50,386 nt of DNA from the IMG/VR virus record IMGVR_UViG_3300021964_000107, positions 1 through 50,386 of that record; one strand, 5' to 3'. The stretch comes from a virus. How positions within the stretch are numbered: position 1 is the first letter of the stretch; the number at the start of each line of letters is the position of its first letter. A program made the translations under genes and the position numbers. Positions 11,518-45,087 of the stretch are shown here, one piece after another. The notes beneath the pieces were generated by a model. That model saw only the letters and a program-made list of their open reading frames with translations, was not told the origin of the DNA and did no database searches.

Positions 11518-11874
11518 TTATTCGTGTTCTCCACCCATATCTTGTGGGTCTTTTTCATATCTTTTACCATTATAGTAAATGTATCTGCTACGACTTGTTG
11601 TATGATAACCATCATTTCTAAGAAAGAAATCTGGTTTTCTTCTTGCAGTTTCAAATGTTGCAACTGTAACTGCGATTGCAGCCAGAATGATAATGTGTGC
11701 GATTGCAGTTACACCAAATATCCACATACTACTAAAATATGAACTAAATGCAATGCACCACATCCATGCTAGCACTTGCATTATCATATGTCTGGTATTT
11801 GTATGTGGAATGTTTTTTAATGGGTTTCTATCATGGTTCATTATAGATTCCCAAGTATCATAAATGTATTTCAT
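11518..11874 (-). CDS. two-helix membrane protein
   Basis: 118 residues from ATG 11874 (AGAGGTGAAT before it); a GTG two codons earlier is the alternative. The N-terminal 30 residues are polar. Hydrophobic segments follow at about 32-52 (MQVLAWMWCIAFSSYF) and 54-76 (WIFGVTAIAHIIILAAIA), then a basic/aromatic tail. It begins just downstream of the tmRNA, probably on the same transcript. Function unknown. Confidence 0.65.
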   Translation of the reverse strand: MKYIYDTWESIMNHDRNPLKNIPHTNTRHMIMQVLAWMWCIAFSSYFSSMWIFGVTAIAHIIILAAIAVTVATFETARRKPDFFLRNDGYHTTSRSRYIYYNGKRYEKDPQDMGGEHE

Positions 11875-11892
11875 ATTCACCTCTTAAATTAA

Positions 11893-12235
11893 GTGGTAGG
11901 TTATTCTGTTACTAGGAAACCTACCGAAACCCTATCCGATTACGCTGCTAGAGCGAAATCTTGAGGTGCAAAGTTATCGTTTGCATTTACTTAAATGAAC
12001 TATTAAGCGTTCAACCTACAATTCTCCTCTTGTCTATCCCTGCCTGTCAATCCTATTTCACCCCCATTAAAATAAGTCTTGCTTGTCGTGGTGATATGTT
12101 GTTGATACACATCCACTTAACTAATGTCTTTCTGTATTCCCAAAGTATTACTTCATCCATTTTAAAACTCATTTTGGTGGAGGTGATGGGTACTGCCCCC
12201 ATGTCCAGCCCAGTATTCAACTCGTATCAACAAAT
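11893..12235 (-). ncRNA. ssrA: circularly permuted two-piece tmRNA (ssrA)
   Basis: On the minus strand the acceptor piece comes first. It ends CACCTCC-A-CCA (12185-12175), and directly 5' of this is a 5-bp/7-nt T-arm-like hairpin (12202-12186, ATGGG/CCCAT). After a 109-base intervening segment the coding piece starts GGGGGTG (12065-12059), which pairs fully with CACCTCC to make the 7-bp acceptor stem, then GAAATAGGATTGACAGG. The tag reading frame (11984-11940) is GCA AAC GAT ... GCA GCG TAA = ANDNFAPQDFALAA, a classic degradation tag. An 8-bp hairpin (GGTAGGTT/AACCTACC) closes the coding piece. Order and tag are of the alphaproteobacterial permuted type. The two RNA ends at 12235 and 11893 are approximate. 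Confidence 0.92.
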
Positions 12236-12242
12236 TGTACTA

Positions 12243-12273
12243 TATTTATAACACATTCTCTTTGTAATGTCAA
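12243..12273 (-). promoter_or_regulatory. combined early/late promoter of the tmRNA
   Basis: TTGACA (12268-12273), 17-base spacer, TATAAA (12245-12250) makes a near-consensus sigma70 promoter. The same -10 region is also a perfect T4 late element TATAAATA (12243-12250). The predicted start near 12237 fits the 5' end of the acceptor piece. Confidence 0.75.
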
Positions 12274-31382: not shown

Positions 31383-31895
31383 TTAATTCTCCTTGTTAAA
31401 TTGTTCAAAACTCATTTTAGGCCCAGAGGTTTGAAAGTTTTTCTTTCTCATTACTGTCTTTGCAATGAGTTCTAGTTCACCACCTTTTAGATTTAGTACA
31501 AAAGGCATATTGATATCTGTCTTCATGTCATTGATAACTGCTTCTGCATCAGGCCCAAGTTTTGCAATCTTCTTACCATACTTCTTAAATGATTGTTTAA
31601 ATAGTCTAGTAAGTTCTGCTGGTGTGATTTGTTTGACATTTCTTTTATCATTTACTCTGTCTAGGAAATGACGAGTAAATTCTACATCTATACCAAGAGA
31701 TGCAAATATTCTATCTGCATACTTTTCTACTTGGTCTAAATCTGATTTCTTTATTTCTTTTTCTGATTGTGCATTTAAGTCTGCAATAGGTACATACTGA
31801 CCCATACCAGGCCCAGTACTTGCACCACCAGTCGCATAAGTTCCCAACGCATCATAGTTGGCATACTCATCAAGATATGTTAAAAAGGTTTTCAT
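31383..31895 (-). CDS. conserved phage protein with capsid-targeting-like start
   Basis: 170 residues. The N-terminus MKTFLTYLDEY fits the leader MK-T/S-F...(L/I/V)-x-E shared by late genes here. The core (VEFTRHFLDRVNDKRNVKQI, then INDMKTDINMPFVLNLKGGE) is conserved in cyanophages; its function is unknown. If the leader works as in T4 internal proteins, this protein is carried in the head. Confidence 0.65.
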   Translation of the reverse strand: MKTFLTYLDEYANYDALGTYATGGASTGPGMGQYVPIADLNAQSEKEIKKSDLDQVEKYADRIFASLGIDVEFTRHFLDRVNDKRNVKQITPAELTRLFKQSFKKYGKKIAKLGPDAEAVINDMKTDINMPFVLNLKGGELELIAKTVMRKKNFQTSGPKMSFEQFNKEN

Positions 31896-32692
31896 TATGC
31901 GTTATCCACTAGAATAATTGTAAAGTCTGCTGATATTGTTGCATTTGCAGAACCTTGAACTCTCAAGTCAATATCTGTTTTCTCTGTGAATTTTAGGGGA
32001 ACAGGAAAATCAATTGACTGATTAGATTGATTCAATGATAGTGTAGATGTAACTCTAAATGCACCACCGAATGGTCTTTGAAATAGGAACAAGTCCGTTG
32101 ATTGGTTCTTACTTGCTGATGCATTGATGTTTGTCATATATCCAGTTTTACCAGCAGGGATTGTATAGAAACATTGTAGTGTCTGTCCAAATCCAGCACC
32201 AATCTCTGTAACAACTGTTCCACCAATACTTGCTTGAATCTTACCAACATTCGTTGCATCATTCATAAATGCACGATTGACTCTAGTGAATGAAGTTGAA
32301 CCTGTAACTGTACTAGTTCCAGTAAGAGTGAATGACTCTTCTACAAAATCATAGTTTGCATCCAACCCTTGAATAGTCACACCACCAGTATCAGAACCAG
32401 ATGTAGATACTACAGAAAGAGTTCCAGCAGAGTGGGCCCAAGGATATAATGCAGTTCCAGAAGTATCTGCCGCAGTCCATACAGTTGAGAATGTTGATAG
32501 TGCAGTTCCAAAAACTCCACCATATTTGTGAACACCAGAATAACCAGCAAGTCCACCGGCCGCAATAATCACATTAGACGCAGCACCAAAAGTATTGATG
32601 ATGTTACCATCTTGATCAGCAATCATCACCACTTCATGGTTAGTGGTCTGTTGTGGTATGTATGCGTTAGTATACTTACTATATTGTGCCAT
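31895..32692 (-). CDS. virion structural protein (beta-rich)
   Basis: 265 residues, Ser/Thr/Gly rich, low in Lys, with many short strands (SGTLSVVSTSGSDTGGVTIQ, DFVEESFTLTGTSTVTG) and a middle FYTIPAGKTGYMTNIN. This is the composition of head-decoration or tail-associated beta proteins in marine phages. It lies first after the 32694 gene in the late block. The exact place in the virion is unknown. Confidence 0.65.
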   Translation of the reverse strand: MAQYSKYTNAYIPQQTTNHEVVMIADQDGNIINTFGAASNVIIAAGGLAGYSGVHKYGGVFGTALSTFSTVWTAADTSGTALYPWAHSAGTLSVVSTSGSDTGGVTIQGLDANYDFVEESFTLTGTSTVTGSTSFTRVNRAFMNDATNVGKIQASIGGTVVTEIGAGFGQTLQCFYTIPAGKTGYMTNINASASKNQSTDLFLFQRPFGGAFRVTSTLSLNQSNQSIDFPVPLKFTEKTDIDLRVQGSANATISADFTIILVDNA

Positions 32693-33813: not shown

Positions 33814-34175
33814 TATAGTTCCTTTAATATCTTATCTACATTATCATCTTTAGTAATGTGATTTAATTCATCATCTCTAAGTATATTTAGAAATAATAAA
33901 AATGATTTCAATGCTGACCAATATTCTTCTTGTATTTTATATAACAAAAGTGTTGCACAAGCATCAGCACCAAACACATTATTTAATACAATAATATGAT
34001 TTAAGAGTAACCTTTCTTTTAATACTCCAGTATCATAATATTTTCTTAAAAGACGTTTAATATATTTAAACCTCTTTAAGTCATCTTCAAATTCTTTTTC
34101 ACCCTCACAATGTGGATTTGTATAATTTCTTATAGCAAACATCAACACATTTTCAGGCGTTATTTTTTCATACAT
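33813..34175 (-). CDS. conserved helical phage protein
   Basis: 120 residues, TPENVLMFAIRNYTNPHCEG, then EFEDDLKRFKYIKRLLRKYY and LLNHIIVLNNVFGADACATL. It is all-helical and conserved next to the 33196 gene in T4-like marine phages. Function unknown. Confidence 0.65.
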   Translation of the reverse strand: MYEKITPENVLMFAIRNYTNPHCEGEKEFEDDLKRFKYIKRLLRKYYDTGVLKERLLLNHIIVLNNVFGADACATLLLYKIQEEYWSALKSFLLFLNILRDDELNHITKDDNVDKILKEL

Positions 34176-34627
34176 TATGATATAGTGGCGTAAACTTTAC
34201 ATGAATTATTTCTTACCATTTCATAATTAATATTCAAACTCAAACCACCCTCAATCATATGTGAAATTCCATCATCACTTAAAAATTCGTCAATAGGTGT
34301 ATCTGTGTCTTTACCAAATCTACCACCGAATAATGTTAATGGAATACTAAATGAACCACTTTTTCCTTCCATTGTAGGAATAGGCCCACCTAATGCTAAA
34401 CCAATTTTTCCAAGATTATTTTTTAATCTATTAATAGCGTGTTCTGCAACAATATACTCGTGGTCTGCAATTCCACCAACGATTGCATTTAATCGTCTAA
34501 GAACTGCTGGATTACCAACTTCAGATGGATTTACTTCAAGACTACCAGCAAAGTTGTTTGGATTTTCTCCAACAGGCCCAGTAGGGAATCCACTATCTTC
34601 TTTCACGAAACTTTTGAAACTTTTCAT
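34175..34627 (-). CDS. conserved protein with capsid-targeting-like start
   Basis: 150 residues. The leader MKSFKSFVKED matches the MK(T/S)F...(V/L/I)-x-E pattern. The rest includes HEYIVAEHAINRLKNNLGKI and SGSFSIPLTLFGGRFGK. It is likely a late, possibly packaged protein. It is promoter-distal to a terminator at 34645, so it must have its own start of transcription or depend on read-through. Function unknown. Confidence 0.62.
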   Translation of the reverse strand: MKSFKSFVKEDSGFPTGPVGENPNNFAGSLEVNPSEVGNPAVLRRLNAIVGGIADHEYIVAEHAINRLKNNLGKIGLALGGPIPTMEGKSGSFSIPLTLFGGRFGKDTDTPIDEFLSDDGISHMIEGGLSLNINYEMVRNNSCKVYATIS

Positions 34628-34706: not shown

Positions 34707-35189
34707 TTAGGAAATATCTATGATGTCAGCGACAATATCTGCACCAACGTCAGCAAAACCAATGATTGCCCATGCAGAACCAGTCCACATTAACATTGCA
34801 CTATCGCCATCATCAACAAAGTTGAGGTCAGCATAGCCCAATCTATTTTGAGGTGTACAGACAGATGCACCTGCATCTGTGTCAGCAATTATCATTTTAA
34901 TTTGACCTTGCACAGTTCCATCAGCAAGTGTTGTTGCACCATTAGTAGCTTCTAGTCCTAATAATGTTACAGCAGTTGTAATTGAAATAGCACCAGAGTT
35001 CTGTACAGCAGTCATATCTTGAAATGAATTTGAAAATCCGATAAAAGACGGCAAGTTATTAATGAAGTTAGTTACTGAAACCTTCTTATTAATTGGTGTT
35101 CCTGTTGGATCATCAATTATATGAAGTAAATCAGCACCAGCTACACCAGTACTTATGTCTGTCAGAGCGGTTACTTTTTTATCAGCCAT
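34707..35189 (-). CDS. fibre-like virion protein, tandem copy 2
   Basis: 160 residues, [40 protein letters not shown]. This N-terminus is typical of phage tail-fibre or head-fibre start domains. The C-terminal half has [20 protein letters not shown]. It is a close paralogue of the next upstream gene, about 80% identical by eye. It is followed by a strong terminator. Confidence 0.7.
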
Positions 35190-35221: not shown

Positions 35222-35704
35222 TTAGTTAGCAATATCAATTAAGTCAGCAGGAATATCGGCACCTACGTCTGCGAAACCAATGATTGCCCAAGCAGCACCA
35301 GTCCACATTAACATTGCAGTATCTCCGTCATCAACAAAGTTTAAGTCTGCATATCCAAGACGAGTCTGTGGAGTACATACTGAAGAACCACCATCTGTGT
35401 CGTGAACAATAATCTTGATTTGACCTTGTACAGTTCCGTTTGCAAGAGTTGTTGCTACGTTATTTGATGTAGTTTCTAGTAAAGAAACAGCAGTTGTAAT
35501 AGATACTGCAGCTGTTTGCTCTGAAGTAAAATCTTGAATTGAATTTGAAAATCCAATAAAAGATGGTAGGTTATTAATAAAGTCTGTTACAGATACTTTC
35601 TTATTAATAGGTGTTCCAGTAGGGTCATCTACAACATGAAGTAAGTCTGCACCAGCTATGCCTGTTGACAAATCTGTCAAAGCGGTAATTTTCTTATCGG
35701 CCAT
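35222..35704 (-). CDS. fibre-like virion protein, tandem copy 1
   Basis: 160 residues, MADKKITALTDLSTGIAGAD and [20 protein letters not shown], same architecture and length as the 34707 gene. The differences are concentrated in the middle (residues 58-90). Each copy has its own identical upstream AGGAGAAGCC ribosome site. The tandem pair indicates a recent duplication with divergence, perhaps two fibre or decoration variants. Confidence 0.7.
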   Translation of the reverse strand: MADKKITALTDLSTGIAGADLLHVVDDPTGTPINKKVSVTDFINNLPSFIGFSNSIQDFTSEQTAAVSITTAVSLLETTSNNVATTLANGTVQGQIKIIVHDTDGGSSVCTPQTRLGYADLNFVDDGDTAMLMWTGAAWAIIGFADVGADIPADLIDIAN

Positions 35705-36935: not shown

Positions 36936-37451
36936 TTATTTGAAACCTAATCGTTTCAATTCGTTTAAAGTTTTTGGAACAGCAGTATGGTGTATACCAA
37001 TACCACCTTTAGCCTCCCACTCTTTAATATTTTTAATATAGTCATCAATAAGGACATTTGGTTTTCCATCAGTTTGAGCAAATGCTTGTTTCTGTGAACG
37101 CATTACCAAGTGTATATTACCTCTCTTAAAATTAGTATTTTTAGAGAGCCACTTCATTTTTCCAGACTTTGAGTTTGGGTCTTTACCAGAATATGCAGAG
37201 AGTATATGTGCATCATATCTTAAAATACTTTGTACTATCTTCTTTGCACCTGGCATCCACTCTAAGTTCGCCCAAAAATCTTTCGTATTAGTAATCTTTT
37301 CCCACCTTGTTTGTTTGTTTGCAAGAGGAAAAGGCATACCAATAACCTTTTCTGCACCTTTTAGAAAGTCACAGAGAACCATATCCATATCACAATAGAT
37401 TGATGATAAGTCCTCTTTGCTTACTTCTAATAGGTCTTTTAAACTTTTCAT
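36936..37451 (-). CDS. HAD-type 5'-nucleotidase with capsid-targeting-like leader
   Basis: 171 residues. The leader MKSLKDLLEVSKED (possible site L-L-E|V) is followed by SSIYCDMDMVLCDF, with the catalytic D21 and D23 of the HAD fold, then AHILSAYSGKDPNSKSGKMK and PNVLIDDYIKNIKEWEAKGG. This is the 5'(3')-deoxyribonucleotidase-like pattern. It would dephosphorylate nucleotides. The leader suggests head packaging. Confidence 0.78.
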   Translation of the reverse strand: MKSLKDLLEVSKEDLSSIYCDMDMVLCDFLKGAEKVIGMPFPLANKQTRWEKITNTKDFWANLEWMPGAKKIVQSILRYDAHILSAYSGKDPNSKSGKMKWLSKNTNFKRGNIHLVMRSQKQAFAQTDGKPNVLIDDYIKNIKEWEAKGGIGIHHTAVPKTLNELKRLGFK

Positions 37452-37999
37452 TACTTAACATTCTTCTTTCCAATAGAAGTTTCAGTCTTCACTTTTTCTT
37501 TCATATCTGGGTCAACACTAACTTTGGTCATTGGTTTCCCAGTCATAGTCTTATCTTCCTTTTTAGAAGATTTCTTTTCTTCTTTCTTTTCAAATGGATT
37601 ATGTCCTTCTTCTACACCCCACATATTAGCAAGTACTGAACGCATAGAGTTATTCTTCTCTTGCATCATGTTTACTTGTTTATTCCAATCTTCTGTAGTT
37701 TGGCCAGGAGTAACTTTCTTTGTATGGTCTGCATACTCTTTAGTACCCATCTCATATGCCTCATTATTATCTTTCTTCATTGCTTTAGCAACTGCCTTAC
37801 GTCTTTTTGCAAGATACTTATCAGATGCATCCTTATCTCCATCATTGTCTATATCACCATCTTCTTTACCAACTGGATCAAGTTTTTCTTTTACTTTTTT
37901 TTGTTCTTCTATTTGAGATTTTACTCCACTTACAGCATTAAGAATTGCTTCCTCAAGACTGCCTGGCTTTCTCTCAAAATATTTACTGTTATAACTCAT
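37451..37999 (-). CDS. charged late protein with dockerin-like calcium motif
   Basis: 182 residues, Lys/Glu rich. PGSLEEAILNA near residue 12 contains a possible protease site L-E-E|A. GDIDNDGDKDASDKYL near 48-63 looks like an EF-hand/dockerin loop and is followed by a basic helix (AKRRKAVAKAMK). The motif recurs in cyanophage structural proteins. It is probably part of the packaged protein set. It lies between the polyprotein-like gene and the HAD gene. Confidence 0.66.
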   Translation of the reverse strand: MSYNSKYFERKPGSLEEAILNAVSGVKSQIEEQKKVKEKLDPVGKEDGDIDNDGDKDASDKYLAKRRKAVAKAMKKDNNEAYEMGTKEYADHTKKVTPGQTTEDWNKQVNMMQEKNNSMRSVLANMWGVEEGHNPFEKKEEKKSSKKEDKTMTGKPMTKVSVDPDMKEKVKTETSIGKKNVK

Positions 38000-38000
38000 G

Positions 38001-40277
38001 TTATTTCCCCTTTACAGTATTGAGCAAGTCTTTGTAAGACTTTGCAATTGAATTTTGAAACTTCAATTTATCATCTGAAGTTCTCATTTTCATGTGCATA
38101 TCTATTGCTTTTTGTGCAATTCTCATATCCACTTTCTTTTTACCATCTGCAAATTCTACGTCTTTATTTCCTCTCATGGAAACAGACTTTCTAAGTTGCA
38201 TGATAATATTCTTTCCAGCGTTTTCTATGTCTTTATCAGTTGCAGTATTATCTACATCTGCTGGGTCTACTTTCTCTGTAAGAGTTTGATATCCCATACG
38301 AATATTAGATACTTGTTCAATTAATTCAAGTTCTTCTTTATACATATTTAGTTCAAATGGTTTAGAACCACCCTTATTGTAAACTTGGATTTGTAGATTT
38401 CCACCTTTGCCTTTTAGTTTGTAGGTATTAGTTTTACCCTCTGAAGGTTTCTTAGGCCCAGTTGCAACTTTATTGTCAATTTCTTTTGGGTCTACTGTGA
38501 TACCCATTTTCTTTTTTGCGTAATCATATGCGTGTTGCATTGCACTACTAAAGTCTTTATGATAAAGGTCGTACTTTTCTTCAAGTTCTTCACTTTTCAT
38601 ACTTCTATGTTTAAATGCAGTTCTAGTTAATGGTTCGCCTTCTTTTGCATTTGGATACATTTGTAAAAAAGTATTTGGGTCATTTCTACCAATAACATCT
38701 AAAATTTGCTCAAGTGGGTCTGTATCTAAATTACCAATAAACTTTTTAAGTTTCTCCCTTGAAGCTGGGTCTGATGCTTGAACATATAATGCTCTTGCCT
38801 TTTCAAAATCTTTCTTGTCCATACCACCAGTTTTTGCAAGGTCAGCTAATGCTTTTGCACCTTTTTCTTGTGGTTTAGTATCTTTGAAAGAACCAGGCTT
38901 ATATGCCATTTCATTAACTTCTTCTTTAAGTTGAGATTTGTCAACTGTATCACCAATACTCTGTGCAGTTTTTAGTCTTGCCAGTTTTAGAGGTGCAACA
39001 TCTTTGAATCTCTTCTCTAGAGAACGTCTGTCTAGTTTCAAATCTCTTTCATCACTACCCATTGAATAGATTTTCATATCTTTTCCAACAAGAGCATATT
39101 TCATCTTTGGTGCTTCTTCTAGTGTTTCTTCTTTAACTTGTTTAAATGTAGCACTTCTACCATACGCCATTTTTATAAAATCTTTTATTTTATTTGCATC
39201 ACCTGTAACTTTTATACTATCTTTACCAAATGGTTTTGCATCAAATTTAACACCCTTGAAACTAGGGCTTCTGTGTGCGTTGTTCATTGTTGCGGCAGTA
39301 GATTTAGGATCATCTATGTTGCCAACAATCATGGTTACGTTAGATGCTTCATCAATCTCAACACTTTCTTCATTCATAGCTTTCTTTAATAACTTATCAG
39401 TCATGTCGGTTGTCATGCCAGATGTAGTCGCATCACCAGTTGAACTTCTACCGATAACAGTTCTTAAAAAATCACTTACTTTTTTCTTTGGGCCGATAAC
39501 TCTAACACTTGCACCAACTGATGCAGACCTAAGACCTAACCCTCTAGCATTTTTTGCTACTTGTGCTGCAATCTTTTTTGTATCACCTTTTTTAATAAAG
39601 ATATCTTCTTGTGCTTCATCAAGTATTTCTTCTTTTATATCTCCAACCTTTGCACCAGGCGAGTTAAGAACATAATTAGTATCTGGGCCTTTGCGAACTG
39701 TGGCACCAGTTTTCTTTACTAACTTCATCATATCTGATTTACTACCACTTGCAACAACTTTATTTTTTAACACATGATGATACATTGCTTCATCAAGTTC
39801 AACTTCTTCTGTAGTAGGAACTAAAAAGTAATCTCTAAGTTTATTCATACTGTTAGATGAAATAGCAAGTTTGTTAGTCCACCAACTTGGTAATGAATCT
39901 TCTGGATTCATACTTTGTAGTTTTGATGATATTTGCATTGCATCTTCAATCATAATTTTACATTGACGAATTGCAGAAGCAACATCTGTATGTCCATCTT
40001 CATTTACTTCTTTTTTTTCATTTGTTTCTGCGTGTTTCTTCATCATATCTTGAACAATGTCACTTTCATACTCATCTGGAAATTTCTTCTTAACATCTTT
40101 CATAAGAGCACTTGTATTACCCTTATATTTTCTATCACTAACCATTCTCTCTATGTCTTTTTGTGTCATAGGATTGACTCTGGCAGTCTTTTTTCTAAAG
40201 GCTGTACTTGTGACTCTTTCACTAAGCAACTTTTCTTCTATTTCCTTTACCTCATTTAATAGTGTTGACATTCTCAT
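38001..40277 (-). CDS. 758-residue polyprotein-like internal head protein
   Basis: The leader MRMSTLLNEV is followed by modules separated by acidic sites of the form EE..(L/I/V)-(D/E/N)-E|(A/K/M/Q): E163|A, E221|A, E310|A, E388|A, E456|M, E567|K, E654|Q. T4 prohead protease gp21 cuts after Glu in (L/I)-x-E. Two modules look related: SVRVIGPKKKVSDFLRTVIG and DSIKVTGDANKIKDFIKMAY. It is probably cut into small DNA-associated proteins during head maturation. No enzyme domain recognised. Ribosome site AAAGGAT. Confidence 0.72.
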   Translation of the reverse strand: MRMSTLLNEVKEIEEKLLSERVTSTAFRKKTARVNPMTQKDIERMVSDRKYKGNTSALMKDVKKKFPDEYESDIVQDMMKKHAETNEKKEVNEDGHTDVASAIRQCKIMIEDAMQISSKLQSMNPEDSLPSWWTNKLAISSNSMNKLRDYFLVPTTEEVELDEAMYHHVLKNKVVASGSKSDMMKLVKKTGATVRKGPDTNYVLNSPGAKVGDIKEEILDEAQEDIFIKKGDTKKIAAQVAKNARGLGLRSASVGASVRVIGPKKKVSDFLRTVIGRSSTGDATTSGMTTDMTDKLLKKAMNEESVEIDEASNVTMIVGNIDDPKSTAATMNNAHRSPSFKGVKFDAKPFGKDSIKVTGDANKIKDFIKMAYGRSATFKQVKEETLEEAPKMKYALVGKDMKIYSMGSDERDLKLDRRSLEKRFKDVAPLKLARLKTAQSIGDTVDKSQLKEEVNEMAYKPGSFKDTKPQEKGAKALADLAKTGGMDKKDFEKARALYVQASDPASREKLKKFIGNLDTDPLEQILDVIGRNDPNTFLQMYPNAKEGEPLTRTAFKHRSMKSEELEEKYDLYHKDFSSAMQHAYDYAKKKMGITVDPKEIDNKVATGPKKPSEGKTNTYKLKGKGGNLQIQVYNKGGSKPFELNMYKEELELIEQVSNIRMGYQTLTEKVDPADVDNTATDKDIENAGKNIIMQLRKSVSMRGNKDVEFADGKKKVDMRIAQKAIDMHMKMRTSDDKLKFQNSIAKSYKDLLNTVKGK

Positions 40278-40281
40278 GTTC

Positions 40282-43200
40282 TTATCCTTTCATCAAATCT
40301 GTTACAGACTTGGCACTCCAAAACTTACATGACCAATATCTTGCTTTATACTTAGGGCCAGGATTGTCGCAATTGTGTCTTGCACGAAAACTTTTTCTTC
40401 GTTCTGGGTCATCTCGTTTGATTTCCATATTAGGGTCACCAAACTCAACCTTTACAACATTTCCTTTGTCATTTTTGACATAAACCTTATATTTTTTAAC
40501 ATCACCTCTTGTTGGATTATTTAGTTCTTTTCCACTCTTATCATCTTTTTCTGTCATCTCACCCCATGCATTTCTCATCATCATTCTGTAAGGTGAATCA
40601 GTTGGTGACGTAAGAGTTTTCATTCTTTGAAATTTACTTACACCAGCTTTACCTTTTTTTGGCACTTTTAAATTTTTAAGTTTCTTATCTTTTTTTAAAA
40701 CACCCTCAATATAATTTAACATTTCCTCACCCTTTGCTCTTTTCATCTGTGCAGCTGAGGGAGCTCCTTTTGCACCTTTCTTTCTCATCTTCTCACCAGA
40801 ACCTCTTTTGATTCTTTGTCTTTTCTTGTGTATGTTTGCCCAAAGACTTTCATCAATATCTGTTCTACCAAAGCCTGGTTTTGGGTCACCTTTTTCTATG
40901 GAGTCAATATGTTGTTTCATGTAATCATCTACATCATCTGCAAGTCCAAGTTCTCCAGCAGTTGACATAATTTTATTATACAATTCTTTTGCTTTTACTT
41001 TTTGTTCGTCTGTTGCTTCTCCAGCATCCATAACTTCTTTTTCTAACTTATAGAAATCATCTTGTAATCTTACAAGTGGTTCAATGTTTGGTTTATCTTT
41101 ATTTGCACTCATAACCTTTTGTGCAGAACCACACATATAGAAAAACTTTGTAGTATAATTACCTACTGTGATTTCGTGTTCTGGTTGTTCTTGAATAGTT
41201 TCTTCCTCTAAACAATCATCACAACAAGCACCAATCTTTTCTAACATCTGGTCATGGACTTCGTTTAGTTTCCACCACCAGTCATCTTCATATCTCAACT
41301 GGTAAATTGCTCTTGTTTGATTAGACTCAAACCATTCGTTTACACTTTCTGGCCCTAGAACCTCATGTCCTTTTGTTTTCTTCTTTGGTATCATACCTAA
41401 TTCTTTTTCACTAAAATCTAAGTCAGTAGAAGTATAATTATCAGTTACTTTTTTCTTTATAACATTATAACCAGATTTAGTTAAATCTTTAAAAAACTTT
41501 TGAATATCTTTACCACCAACATCATCTTTAACATTAAACTTACTAAGGTCATCAGCATGATAATCTCTTAATTTATGTTTTTTAACCAGTTTATCAATAG
41601 TCTTTACATGAGGTTCTTTTCCAGTTCTTATAGGTTTCTCGTCTGGAGCATCTATTTGAAACTCTACACCAAAAGTTTTTGTTACTGTTTTCTTTTCTTC
41701 TATTTCAACTTCTTCACTTGCACGAACTTTATCTGCAAGGTCTTTGTCTGCCTTACCCCATGTACCAGATGACTTTGTTGTAAATGAGTTAACTCTTGCA
41801 AGTGCCCATTGTTGTGGAGTTGCCCCTGGCCTATGTCCAGTTTTATATGCAGCCATTCCTCTATCATATACCTTTTTCAATATAGAATAAGGCATACCAG
41901 TTTTCTTTGCTTTGTTAACAAGAGCAGTAATCTTTTCGTCTAAGTGATAAATCTCCATATCTACTTCCTCATTTTTGTCTTTTTTATCTAGATAGGCTGC
42001 AACTGCCATATCTTTAATTTTTTTATCTGATTTACCTTTAAACTGTGGTGCATCTGATTTTCTAAAATCGTCTACATAATCTCCAACATCTGCGTTCTTA
42101 CCAAGTTTTTCTTTGATACCAAGTTTCTTTCTCATATCATCAATCTGTTTCATAATCTCTTTGTGTTTAGGAGAACCAGCAGGAGCTCTCATTCCTTTAT
42201 TATAAAGTTTTAGTAGTTCTAATGGTATTTTAATATCTTTCTCACCATACATCTGTTTAAACTTCTTAGTATGTTTAGATGGTTTAGTTGTTGCAGATTT
42301 ATCTCCAGGCGCAGGCCCTTTCTTTCCTTTTTCAAAGTGTCTTGCACGAGCTTGTTTAGTAGACTTTGACATTGCATCGCCTTCAGTATCTTTTGCATAA
42401 TACTTTGCTGGTTGTGTACCCTCTCTATCTTTAACATCTTTATCTTGTTTTGTATCTCTTTCTCTAAGTCTAGGTTCTCTACGATTATCAGATGGTTCTT
42501 CGTTTTTAAGATTACTTGGGTCATTGTTCATAGGATTATTATCTATGTGTCCAACATCCATACCTTTAACTGCATTATCACCCATGACTCTACGAGCTTT
42601 GTTTCTAGAAGAACGTCTTGCAATTTGTTCTGGAGTTCCTTGATAATTTGCATATTCTTTCTTGTAATCTCTTTCTACAATATCATATAACCAAGTCTTA
42701 TGTACTTTATTGTTTTCATCTACAAATGATAAGTAGTTTGTACCTTTGTTAATTACTTTACCTTTTATACCTTTTGATTCTACTATGTCACCAATATTCC
42801 AGAGTTTTCCAGTCAGATATAAATCTCTTAGAGATTCAAAGTCAGTCATCTCTCCCATATCTTTTTCTTCACGAATGCCCATGTTTTTACGAACATCATT
42901 GTATAGTTTAAGTGCATCTCTAAAACCAGATGGAACACCAGTCTTGAAAGTATCAAAATCTCCAGCAGAAGCTGCAGCTCTCATCTTTGATGCAGACATA
43001 CCAGAAACACCCTCTGCATCTGGGTCACGCTCTCCAGCAGATACAACTTCTATATTATCAAAACCATAATATCCATGTCTACCATTTACACCATTATATT
43101 TGTTGAGTAAACCCTCAAACTCTGTAACTCTATCAGAACCAACAACCATAACAATTGCTCTATGACCTTTGTTATGTAATTCAACTGCAATGTCAAATAC

Positions 43201-43473
43201 CATTTTGATTTTTTTATTTGCCATAATATTCTTTGCATACTTTGGAAACATCTTTCTCATGTATGCAACTTTTAGTGCAAAGGGTAATGGGTCTTTCTTT
43301 GGATTCTGTGATTGTGATGAAAACACATACATCTTAGAACCAGCATTTTTAGACTGTTCTCTTGCAAGTGCATCAATTAATTTTTCGTGTCCAGTTGTAG
43401 GTGGATTGAATCTACCAAAAGTAAAGATTGCAGTATCACCTAACTTTTCAGTTATTTGAGAAAAATTACGCAT
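40282..43473 (-). CDS. 1063-residue multidomain nucleotidyltransferase, polyprotein-like
   Basis: The start at 43473 (AAGGAG, 11 bases upstream) gives leader MRNFSQITEK. Residues 14-34 (TAIFTFGRFNPPTTGHEKLI) carry the T-x-G-H motif of NMN adenylyltransferase-type enzymes. Near residue 310, MDVGHIDNNPMNNDPSNL is HNH-like. The rest is Lys/Glu rich, with further protease-like sites (YHLDE|K, EVEIEE|K, ETIQE|Q, DIDE|S). The C-terminal YKARYWSCKFWS is conserved in marine T4-like phages. It is likely a packaged late polyprotein; longer frames begin at 43494. Confidence 0.75.
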   Translation of the reverse strand: MRNFSQITEKLGDTAIFTFGRFNPPTTGHEKLIDALAREQSKNAGSKMYVFSSQSQNPKKDPLPFALKVAYMRKMFPKYAKNIMANKKIKMVFDIAVELHNKGHRAIVMVVGSDRVTEFEGLLNKYNGVNGRHGYYGFDNIEVVSAGERDPDAEGVSGMSASKMRAAASAGDFDTFKTGVPSGFRDALKLYNDVRKNMGIREEKDMGEMTDFESLRDLYLTGKLWNIGDIVESKGIKGKVINKGTNYLSFVDENNKVHKTWLYDIVERDYKKEYANYQGTPEQIARRSSRNKARRVMGDNAVKGMDVGHIDNNPMNNDPSNLKNEEPSDNRREPRLRERDTKQDKDVKDREGTQPAKYYAKDTEGDAMSKSTKQARARHFEKGKKGPAPGDKSATTKPSKHTKKFKQMYGEKDIKIPLELLKLYNKGMRAPAGSPKHKEIMKQIDDMRKKLGIKEKLGKNADVGDYVDDFRKSDAPQFKGKSDKKIKDMAVAAYLDKKDKNEEVDMEIYHLDEKITALVNKAKKTGMPYSILKKVYDRGMAAYKTGHRPGATPQQWALARVNSFTTKSSGTWGKADKDLADKVRASEEVEIEEKKTVTKTFGVEFQIDAPDEKPIRTGKEPHVKTIDKLVKKHKLRDYHADDLSKFNVKDDVGGKDIQKFFKDLTKSGYNVIKKKVTDNYTSTDLDFSEKELGMIPKKKTKGHEVLGPESVNEWFESNQTRAIYQLRYEDDWWWKLNEVHDQMLEKIGACCDDCLEEETIQEQPEHEITVGNYTTKFFYMCGSAQKVMSANKDKPNIEPLVRLQDDFYKLEKEVMDAGEATDEQKVKAKELYNKIMSTAGELGLADDVDDYMKQHIDSIEKGDPKPGFGRTDIDESLWANIHKKRQRIKRGSGEKMRKKGAKGAPSAAQMKRAKGEEMLNYIEGVLKKDKKLKNLKVPKKGKAGVSKFQRMKTLTSPTDSPYRMMMRNAWGEMTEKDDKSGKELNNPTRGDVKKYKVYVKNDKGNVVKVEFGDPNMEIKRDDPERRKSFRARHNCDNPGPKYKARYWSCKFWSAKSVTDLMKG

Positions 43474-43849
43474 CTGATTTAGAACTCCTTGCATCTTTTA
43501 CTTTTTGTATTTCTTTTTTCTTTACAACTTTTACAGATTTCATTGCAATCTTATTAATCATACCACTATACCTTGCAGATATAATTTGGTCAACCTTTAT
43601 TCTTTGTGCAATAGGCATTTCTTTATATTTTGGAAAAAATTTATCTAAGACTTTTTGTTTTGCTAACTTTGCAGCTTTAACTTTAATCTTTTCTGGAGAT
43701 GCAACTTTTAGTTTTGACTTTTCTACTTTCTTTTTAAAAGCAGAAGTTTTAGTTAATCGTTTCATACGAATAGCTGCTTTTCTTCTTGCAGCTTTATTTA
43801 CAACTTTTAGTTCTGATATATCAGAATATAGTTCTAAGAAAGTTTTCAT
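43466..43849 (-). CDS. highly basic internal head protein
   Basis: 127 residues. The leader MKTFLELYSDISEL (possible site I-S-E|L) is followed by an extremely Lys/Arg-rich body (RRKAAIRMKRLTKTSAFKKK, KLKVASPEKIKVKAAKLAKQ). This is what an internal protein bound to packaged DNA looks like. The ATG overlaps the upstream stop by four bases, and it overlaps the nucleotidyltransferase start by 8 bases. Confidence 0.72.
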   Translation of the reverse strand: MKTFLELYSDISELKVVNKAARRKAAIRMKRLTKTSAFKKKVEKSKLKVASPEKIKVKAAKLAKQKVLDKFFPKYKEMPIAQRIKVDQIISARYSGMINKIAMKSVKVVKKKEIQKVKDARSSKSDA

Positions 43850-45087
43850 TTATCCCATGCCTTGATTGCAGTAAAGTTGTTAAACGAGAACTCCATTCTG
43901 TCCACTAGTTTAACAGCACCACCACTAACTCTATCAATCGCAACATAACCCTCTGGGTTAGTTACTTTAAATCCATTTGAGGTCTTGATGAACGTATCCG
44001 TCAAACCCTTAACACTATTTAGTTTTTTTACAATTTGCATTTTTGCATCAACTAATAGGTTTTGGAACGTAATAATATTAGTTAAGTTGTTAGTGTGTTT
44101 CTTTACTTCTCTTACATACTCTTTCTGTATGTTCGTATATTTATCTTTACCTTTTGTACTTTTTGCTTTATCTATTTGTTTCTGAATAGATTGTTCAACC
44201 CAAGATTCATATCCTTTTGCATGAGCTTTAGGATTACTAATCTTTTGACCTTGACGAACCTTACTATTATTATATGTTGATAGTTTAGCACCAACAATCG
44301 CACCTTGCATACTTTCTTGTAGTTTCATAAACTTAGTTAACATAGGTGCGCTTATTTTTTGGAAAGTCTTACCAGTTTGTGAAAGTAGACCAGTAACAAC
44401 AGCAGTTTCTTTTGCATTAAATGTTGCAGTACCAGATGCATCTTTATAAGTTGCATCATCCATCCATATACTTGGAGTTTTCTTTAGACCAGATATATCA
44501 ACACCAAAAGATGCAGTCATGTCTTCTAGTTTACTTCCAGAATATGTTGTGTGCCATACAATACCAACTTTGGCTTTGTTTATAACCTTACCAAAATCAC
44601 TATCAACAGGCACAGCGTAGACAATAGTATTAGGTTGGAAAGTGTAGTACTTAATACCTTCAATTGTGGTTGACTCCACATCATTTGTGAACATGAGGTC
44701 GCCTTGTATAACGGACTTGATTCCGAGTTTTGAGAACTCTGCGAGTGCGACTTTGAATTTTTCAACAAGTGCTCCTTTGAGGTCATCATCTATCTCCTTA
44801 GCTGTTTTGTACAGTTTGGGATTGACGTTGAATACCGACTTCTTTGCAACAAAGAACTTTCCATCAGAGGGGTCAATACCAGCAAAGATTGCTGGAGCAC
44901 CATCCCATTTGACTGTCATATTAATACTGGAACGAGCATTACCAGCCAACATATCTCTAAGAGATTGTAGGAAGTTAATTGCAGCTCTGCCACCTGGCAC
45001 ACCATTGTTGATAATTTCATCTTCAATGTGTTCTAGATGTAAATTCTTTCCAGCTTTACTTTCTTCTAATTGTTTGAAACTAATCAT
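43846..45087 (-). CDS. ligase-like nucleotidyltransferase with capsid-targeting-like leader
   Basis: 413 residues. The leader MISFKQLEESKAG (possible site L-E-E|S) is followed by NMTVKWDGAPAIFAG with K60-W-D-G, the adenylation motif I of DNA/RNA ligases and capping enzymes, then FFVAKKSVFNVNP and SVIQGDLMFTND (motif IV-like). It is likely a polynucleotide ligase or related AMP-transferring enzyme. The leader suggests packaging with the genome. It overlaps both neighbours by 4 bases. Confidence 0.75.
   Translation of the reverse strand: MISFKQLEESKAGKNLHLEHIEDEIINNGVPGGRAAINFLQSLRDMLAGNARSSINMTVKWDGAPAIFAGIDPSDGKFFVAKKSVFNVNPKLYKTAKEIDDDLKGALVEKFKVALAEFSKLGIKSVIQGDLMFTNDVESTTIEGIKYYTFQPNTIVYAVPVDSDFGKVINKAKVGIVWHTTYSGSKLEDMTASFGVDISGLKKTPSIWMDDATYKDASGTATFNAKETAVVTGLLSQTGKTFQKISAPMLTKFMKLQESMQGAIVGAKLSTYNNSKVRQGQKISNPKAHAKGYESWVEQSIQKQIDKAKSTKGKDKYTNIQKEYVREVKKHTNNLTNIITFQNLLVDAKMQIVKKLNSVKGLTDTFIKTSNGFKVTNPEGYVAIDRVSGGAVKLVDRMEFSFNNFTAIKAWDK

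Follow-up and report, generated by a model that had tools for sequence, protein, structure and literature searches.

Shuffled modules and prohead protease-type linkers in a predicted head polyprotein of a marine T4-like phage

Organization of the locus

The window analysed here is a stretch of 50,386 nucleotides (positions 1 to 50,386 of IMG/VR record IMGVR_UViG_3300021964_000107) and represents part of a marine T4-like myophage genome related to the Methylophilales phage Melnitz (Kyanoviridae) as well as to uncultured contigs. The gene under study recurs in identical form on a 65-kb IMG/VR contig, the longer contig of the same virus, which also carries an S77 protease gene lying outside the window. 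The ORF of the 758-residue protein is indeed present at positions 38001..40277, on the minus strand, which the first-pass annotation had not specified. The gene appears to encode a chain of about nine small modules that are interchangeable and joined by a cut site of the head protease.

The modules, all on the minus strand, were named after their first residues or their position. The N-terminal leader (residues 1-20, MRMSTLLNE/VKEIEEKLLSE/, 40218..40277; slashes mark predicted cuts throughout) is a candidate capsid-targeting propeptide. It is followed by the NT module (residues 21-93, 39999..40217), ending at E93 (EKKEVNE/), and by the acidic DGH module (residues 94-163, 39789..39998), which ends in EEVELDE/ and elsewhere occurs alone behind a leader. 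The linker closing the DGH module (residues 157-163, 39789..39809) has the exact 21-base consensus GAAGAAGTTGAACTTGATGAA. Further along are the AMY module (residues 164-221, 39615..39788), ending in KEEILDE/, the AQE module (residues 222-310, 39348..39614), ending in ESVEIDE/, and the ASN module (residues 311-388, 39114..39347), of which AQE is a diverged copy and which ends in KEETLEE/. The APK module (residues 389-456, 38910..39113) ends in LKEEVNE/ and is preceded by [LIVMF]xE in 4/4 contexts. The helical MAY module (residues 457-567, 38577..38909) ends in KSEELEE/, whereas the KYD module (residues 568-654, 38316..38576), an alpha/beta domain with 83 ORF matches in relatives, ends in EELELIE/. 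The CT module (residues 669-758, 38004..38273) follows YQTLTE/ and is either first or last in other proteins.

The neighbouring 1070-aa ORF (40282..43494, minus strand) comprises NadR-like cytidylyltransferase, HNH-like, DUF5824 and further modules with linkers such as EEVEIEE/KKT and EEETIQE/QPE; it seems to represent a known virion-associated cytidylyltransferase fused into a polyprotein. On the other side lies a 182-aa ORF (37451..37999, minus strand), whose EDGDIDNDGDKDASDKYLAKRRKAVAKAM block recurs within polyproteins.

Other features of the window include a 413-aa DUF6267 protein (43846-45087, minus strand) with a leader-like N-terminus (MISFKQLEE/S) and a homologue in SSZBM1_141 (38% identity). 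Its VKWDGAPAIF motif recalls the KxDG motif of ligases and nucleotidyltransferases, but PDB searches gave no sequence support for a ligase relationship. Two small genes of the operon, at 31383-31895 and 34175-34627 (both minus strand), start with MKTFLTYLDE/Y and MKSFKSFVKE/D, near the propeptide pattern of T4 internal proteins. Tandem 160-aa paralogues (34707-35189 and 35222-35704, minus strand) are similar over most of their length (MADKKxTALTDxSTGxAGADLLH...). A phage tmRNA with the tag ANDNFAPQDFALAA is encoded at 11849-12267 (minus strand); a tmRNA is found in Melnitz as well.

Recurrent acidic linkers

The first-pass annotation had listed seven internal sites, each an EE pair followed by an aliphatic residue, D, E or N, and Glu, and had read the protein as a polyprotein cut by the prohead protease. 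All seven P1 glutamates are present (163, 221, 310, 388, 456, 567 and 654). The [LIV]-x-E form of the sites holds, with small corrections to their make-up: E654 has Ile at P2 (EELELIE/Q), and the pair at E310 reads EES. Two further sites had been overlooked, E93 (EKKEVNE/DGH) and E668 (YQTLTE/KVD), and the leader has two more of the [LIV]-x-E type, E9 (LLNE/V) and E20 (LLSE/R).

The linker motif E[EST]x(0-3)[LIVMF]xE occurs eight times in the 758-aa protein versus 0.78 times in composition shuffles (p<=0.005), corresponding to an approximately tenfold density. When the 71 ORFs of the window were compared for those with at least two sites, the 1070-aa neighbour was likewise enriched (4 versus 0.71 in shuffles), and the only other one was a 182-aa ORF at 2219-2764 with weak enrichment (2 versus 0.27). 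Among the 198 ORFs of Melnitz, the motif singles out, besides two from the same locus, only the gp22 scaffold, whose T4 counterpart is known to be cut by gp21 at multiple sites (PMC9026906). Melnitz also has a 462-aa protein with the candidate sites EEIEIDE/MKM and EEVISE/EEE. Not every [LIVMF]xE tripeptide would be cut, because E111 sits inside a module, in a helix predicted by the full-length single-sequence model (pLDDT 45). The sites predict the exact ends of the putative pieces, which in this virus would be marked by the peptides DYFLVPTTEEVELDE on the C-terminal side and AMYHHVLK, AQEDIFIK, ASNVTMIVGNIDDPK, MAYKPGSFK and QVSNIR on the N-terminal side.

Modules are reordered among relatives

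Single-module scans of viral contigs retrieved more than 200 loci, and about 250 relatives were used for testing. BLASTP comparison of the ORF with its relatives splits into separate blocks with edges at or near the proposed sites. In one related locus (L003), matches to residues 564-650 and 91-158 are fused directly in reversed order, and in another (L014) DGH and AMY are each encoded by a gene of their own. CT precedes KYD in 13 ORFs and follows it in eight; both orders were also found for KYD and DGH, QPE and DGH, and KYD and DUF5824, and KYD occurs in tandem with itself. Thus, modules are reordered elsewhere, with breakpoints at the sites, as expected of a modular polyprotein. For the NT module (residues 21-93), the searches found no relatives beyond this virus itself.

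The suggestion that some modules are diverged copies is borne out by residues 222-310 and 311-388 (BLASTP E=6e-6, shuffle z=6.5). As for their description as small, basic and DNA-associated, each of the nine pieces predicted has a mass of 6.3-12.5 kDa, and the pI is 9.2-9.6 in seven of them; residues 94-163, in contrast, are acidic (pI 4.5), and residues 457-567 near neutral. Support for DNA association is limited to the basic charge of most pieces.

Alignment-based AlphaFold2 modelling, which covers residues 443-668, gave pLDDT of ~80 for the helical domain and ~55-75 for the alpha/beta domain, with the linker stretches around E456, E567 and E654 below 50. The full-length alignment-free model was poor (pLDDT 45). 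A PDB fold search gave no significant match, and no sequence relative of the 758-aa protein was found in the PDB. The protein likewise matched no PHROG at E<=0.001 and no Pfam family above the cut-off; matches to PI3K_p85B and LYRM2-like Pfam families were dismissed as far under the cut-off.

Conservation of sites at module seams

The first-pass annotation had proposed profiling the linker motif in homologues, with loss of the sites in conserved modules counting against its reading. We observed the opposite: modules move, and [LIV]xE stays at the seam. [LIVMF]xE is found immediately upstream of QPE in 16/16 distinct contexts, of DGH in 54/57 and of DUF5824 in 55/66. The KYD module is less strict, with an exact site in 23/59 contexts and a site within three residues in 47/59; in some proteins the linker is missing altogether (SGTG/YELYHK). 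The sequence upstream of the seam is often wholly different, as in KQMFGE/, DYETFVIE/ and GDIKE/.

In the 192 junction contexts, Glu occupies P1 in 83% of cases and Asp never does, and P3 is Leu in 52%, Ile in 18% and Val in 8% (78% together), in keeping with the L/I-x-E rule for substrates of the protease, although these counts are inflated and not independent because the contexts share descent. In addition, the Glu before DGH and QPE could be the module's own, and therefore the argument is borne by the upstream variety and by P3, the former being stronger than the junction counts. At 51-54% of sharp breakpoints, defined as edges of homologous blocks with >=60% identity inside and <25% outside, [LIVMF]xE lies no more than five residues away, versus 19-20% at random. 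In the same breakpoint set, [LIVMF]xD and [LIVMF]xK show no peak. Given that [LIVMF]xD is unenriched and P1 Asp absent, we dismissed the idea that any acidic linker suffices. Since P1 Asp in T4 IPIII stops processing while still allowing targeting (PMC9026906), the absence of Asp favours cutting over a mere acidic joint.

Leaders and the prohead protease

When the DGH module is the first in a gene, it is preceded by a leader, mostly of 16-24 residues and ending mostly in [VIL]xE. Stand-alone DGH genes open with MKSFKDLQNELVSLKE/DGH or MKYKQTFREALQQVRE/DGH, although in a few stand-alone forms of 84-86 aa the leader ends in LQKE, which is an imperfect fit. For comparison, the capsid-targeting propeptides of T4 internal proteins have 10-19 residues and are removed by gp21 after L/I-x-E (PMC9026906). 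The leader of the 758-aa protein contains such candidate sites in both LLNE/V and LLSE/R. Leader-like N-termini are only mildly enriched in the operon (p=0.007 in the window, p=0.11 in Melnitz), and this enrichment was given no weight in the argument.

An S77 prohead protease (PF03420, E=1.6e-36) is encoded on the 65-kb contig that shares this gene, between the portal, scaffold and capsid genes. On the same contig, the N-terminal region of the capsid protein gp23 contains FLGE/AAPTN and the scaffold protein gp22 contains ELEE/A, which we infer to be cut sites by analogy with T4. The S77 protease was also found on 6/15 other module-carrying contigs; all of these are fragments, and the absence of the protease from the remainder thus means little.

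The linker as a DNA element

In loci picked by module and not by linker, EEVELDE is encoded as GAAGAAGTTGAACTTGATGAR in 86/118 distinct contexts. CTT accounts for 93% of the Leu codons in EEVELDE linkers, for 76% in the remaining LDE linkers and for 44% in the remaining LxE linkers, versus a background of 22-28%. When viral contigs were scanned with the 21-mer only, the longest open frame gave EEVELDE in 142/142 of the matches listed; they represent at least 116 distinct ORFs with at least 114 different octamers after the linker. The ORFs of the matches listed contain 454 linkers versus 86 in shuffles, and subtraction of the ~142 linkers by which they were selected leaves ~312. The linker is thus conserved as DNA beyond codon usage, and seemingly spread as DNA too. 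These observations suggest that linkers double as recombination seams, which would explain module shuffling; in-frame shuffling between linkers is the simplest reading, and another constraint at the nucleotide level is a possible alternative. A DNA artefact was dismissed as a full explanation of the linker repeat: DNA spread alone cannot account for the rule at the protein level, since P3 and P1 are kept at junctions whose DNA is unrelated.

Virion proteins of relatives

Homologues of the operon cytidylyltransferase were detected in purified cyanophage virions by mass spectrometry, as S-CREM2 gp154, S-SZBM1 140, S-SCSM1 ORF91 and in S-CBWM1 (PMC10665884, PMC9146016, PMC9602691). The N-termini of S-CREM2 gp154 (MKNFSSFLTE/A) and S-SZBM1_140 (MRFRQFIIE/A) are much like a T4 propeptide. 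The S-CREM2 data also include gp160, a virion protein with seven peptides that shares shuffled modules and EE-linkers (EENLEE/KKN, EETEISE/GKK) with the polyprotein class, albeit in another order, and gp176, an unnamed virion protein with 20 unique peptides, a homologue of which (39% identity) is encoded in the window at 31895-32692 on the minus strand. Some detected virion proteins may be carry-over from preparation, as the authors warn (PMC10665884, PMC9146016, PMC9602691).

A proposed mechanism and its alternatives

Conservation at the seams, the S77 gene in the virus and P1 being Glu and never Asp support the original proposal of a polyprotein cut by the prohead protease, with cleavage predicted from sequence. 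We consider it probable that the 758-aa protein is packaged in the head, where a gp21-type protease would cut it into small modules. The short N-terminal leader would probably target the polyprotein into the prohead core, followed by the approximately nine folded modules, nearly all ending in an acidic [LIV]-x-E linker. During prohead maturation, the S77 protease would cut after each linker Glu, and the freed proteins of 6-12 kDa would stay in the head and probably be ejected with the DNA into the next host, where the modules might act.

One alternative is that the chain remains uncut and polyvalent, with modules acting jointly and acidic linkers serving as flexible joints spread by recombination between DNA repeats. 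Many-domain polyvalent proteins are known in phages (PMC5512222), and with linker DNA conserved beyond codon usage, the repeated peptide might have arisen as a side effect of a DNA seam. However, the junctions KQMFGE/QPE, DYETFVIE/QPE and QVRE/DGH, unrelated in both DNA and peptide, keep the aliphatic P3 and the P1 Glu, and an acidic joint should tolerate Asp, which is never seen at P1. Free module order also speaks against a fixed assembly, and we regard an uncut chain as unlikely.

Cleavage in the head might also have another purpose, if the protein is a sacrificial part of the core, cut up like T4 gp22 and gp67, with pieces exiting the head. Fragments of these two T4 proteins mostly do leave the head (PMC9026906), and Melnitz gp22 is likewise rich in the linker motif. 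Yet the pieces here, of 6-12 kDa, differ from scaffold peptides in being conserved, folded modules with independent mobility, and operon homologues persist in mature virions, with S-CREM2 gp160 carrying these very modules. A sacrificial role therefore seems less likely still. The least probable reading, to which we give very little credence, is that the sites are cut by a different protease, or only in the host after ejection: the cut specificity is deduced from sequence, but the motif fits both the gp21 rule and the predicted gp22 and gp23 sites of the same virus, and stand-alone forms bear prohead-type leaders.

In T4 head maturation, one gene yields one internal protein. The polyprotein version, if true, would show how abundant ocean phages pack many proteins per head. 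It would make candidate effectors of early infection, or counter-defences, out of modules now annotated as 'hypothetical' by the hundreds, and their ends could be predicted. It would also provide an example from nature of a protease site doubling as a recombination joint. More broadly, marine T4-like phages might keep a large open repertoire of small head-delivered proteins in polyprotein genes, in which the linker would be a protease site at the protein level and, as GAAGAAGTTGAACTTGATGAR, a homology seam at the DNA level for in-frame swap, gain and loss of modules; we hold the chances of this wider scenario to be evenly balanced.

Comparison with known systems

Our search of the open-access literature found no precedent for a phage polyprotein cut by the prohead protease, but several systems resemble the proposed one in part. 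T4 IPI-III and Alt have a short N-terminal propeptide that closes with L/I-x-E, for which the leader here is a candidate counterpart, and an S77 protease cuts them to give small basic products that are kept in the head and ejected (PMC9026906), as is proposed here. They differ in that one gene gives one mature product, whereas here there are about nine modules per gene with internal sites. No homology to IPI-III or Alt was detected in the 758-aa protein (PHROG E<=0.001; Pfam cut-off), so that by analogy it would work like the T4 internal proteins without detected sequence kinship. T4 gp22 and gp67 also have many L/I-x-E sites per chain, but their pieces are remnants of the scaffold and for the most part leave the head, in contrast to the conserved folded modules found here.

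Substrates of the phiKZ gp175 and SPN3US gp245 proteases are similar in having several x-x-E cuts in ejected head proteins. In SPN3US, the cuts removed N-terminal propeptides at an A-x-E motif, except for the C-terminal propeptide of the protease itself (PMC10052503), and the substrates of these phages do not give a set of separate mature modules, unlike what is proposed for the protein described here. Finally, polyvalent proteins of phages and plasmids (Iyer et al. 2017) combine many unrelated domains delivered at infection and were compared with polyproteins by their authors (PMC5512222). The 758-aa protein has no significant Pfam domain corresponding to an embedded peptidase or another domain of the polyvalent class. 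Whereas release of polyvalent proteins is attributed to an embedded peptidase, the sites in the 758-aa protein match a separate head protease.
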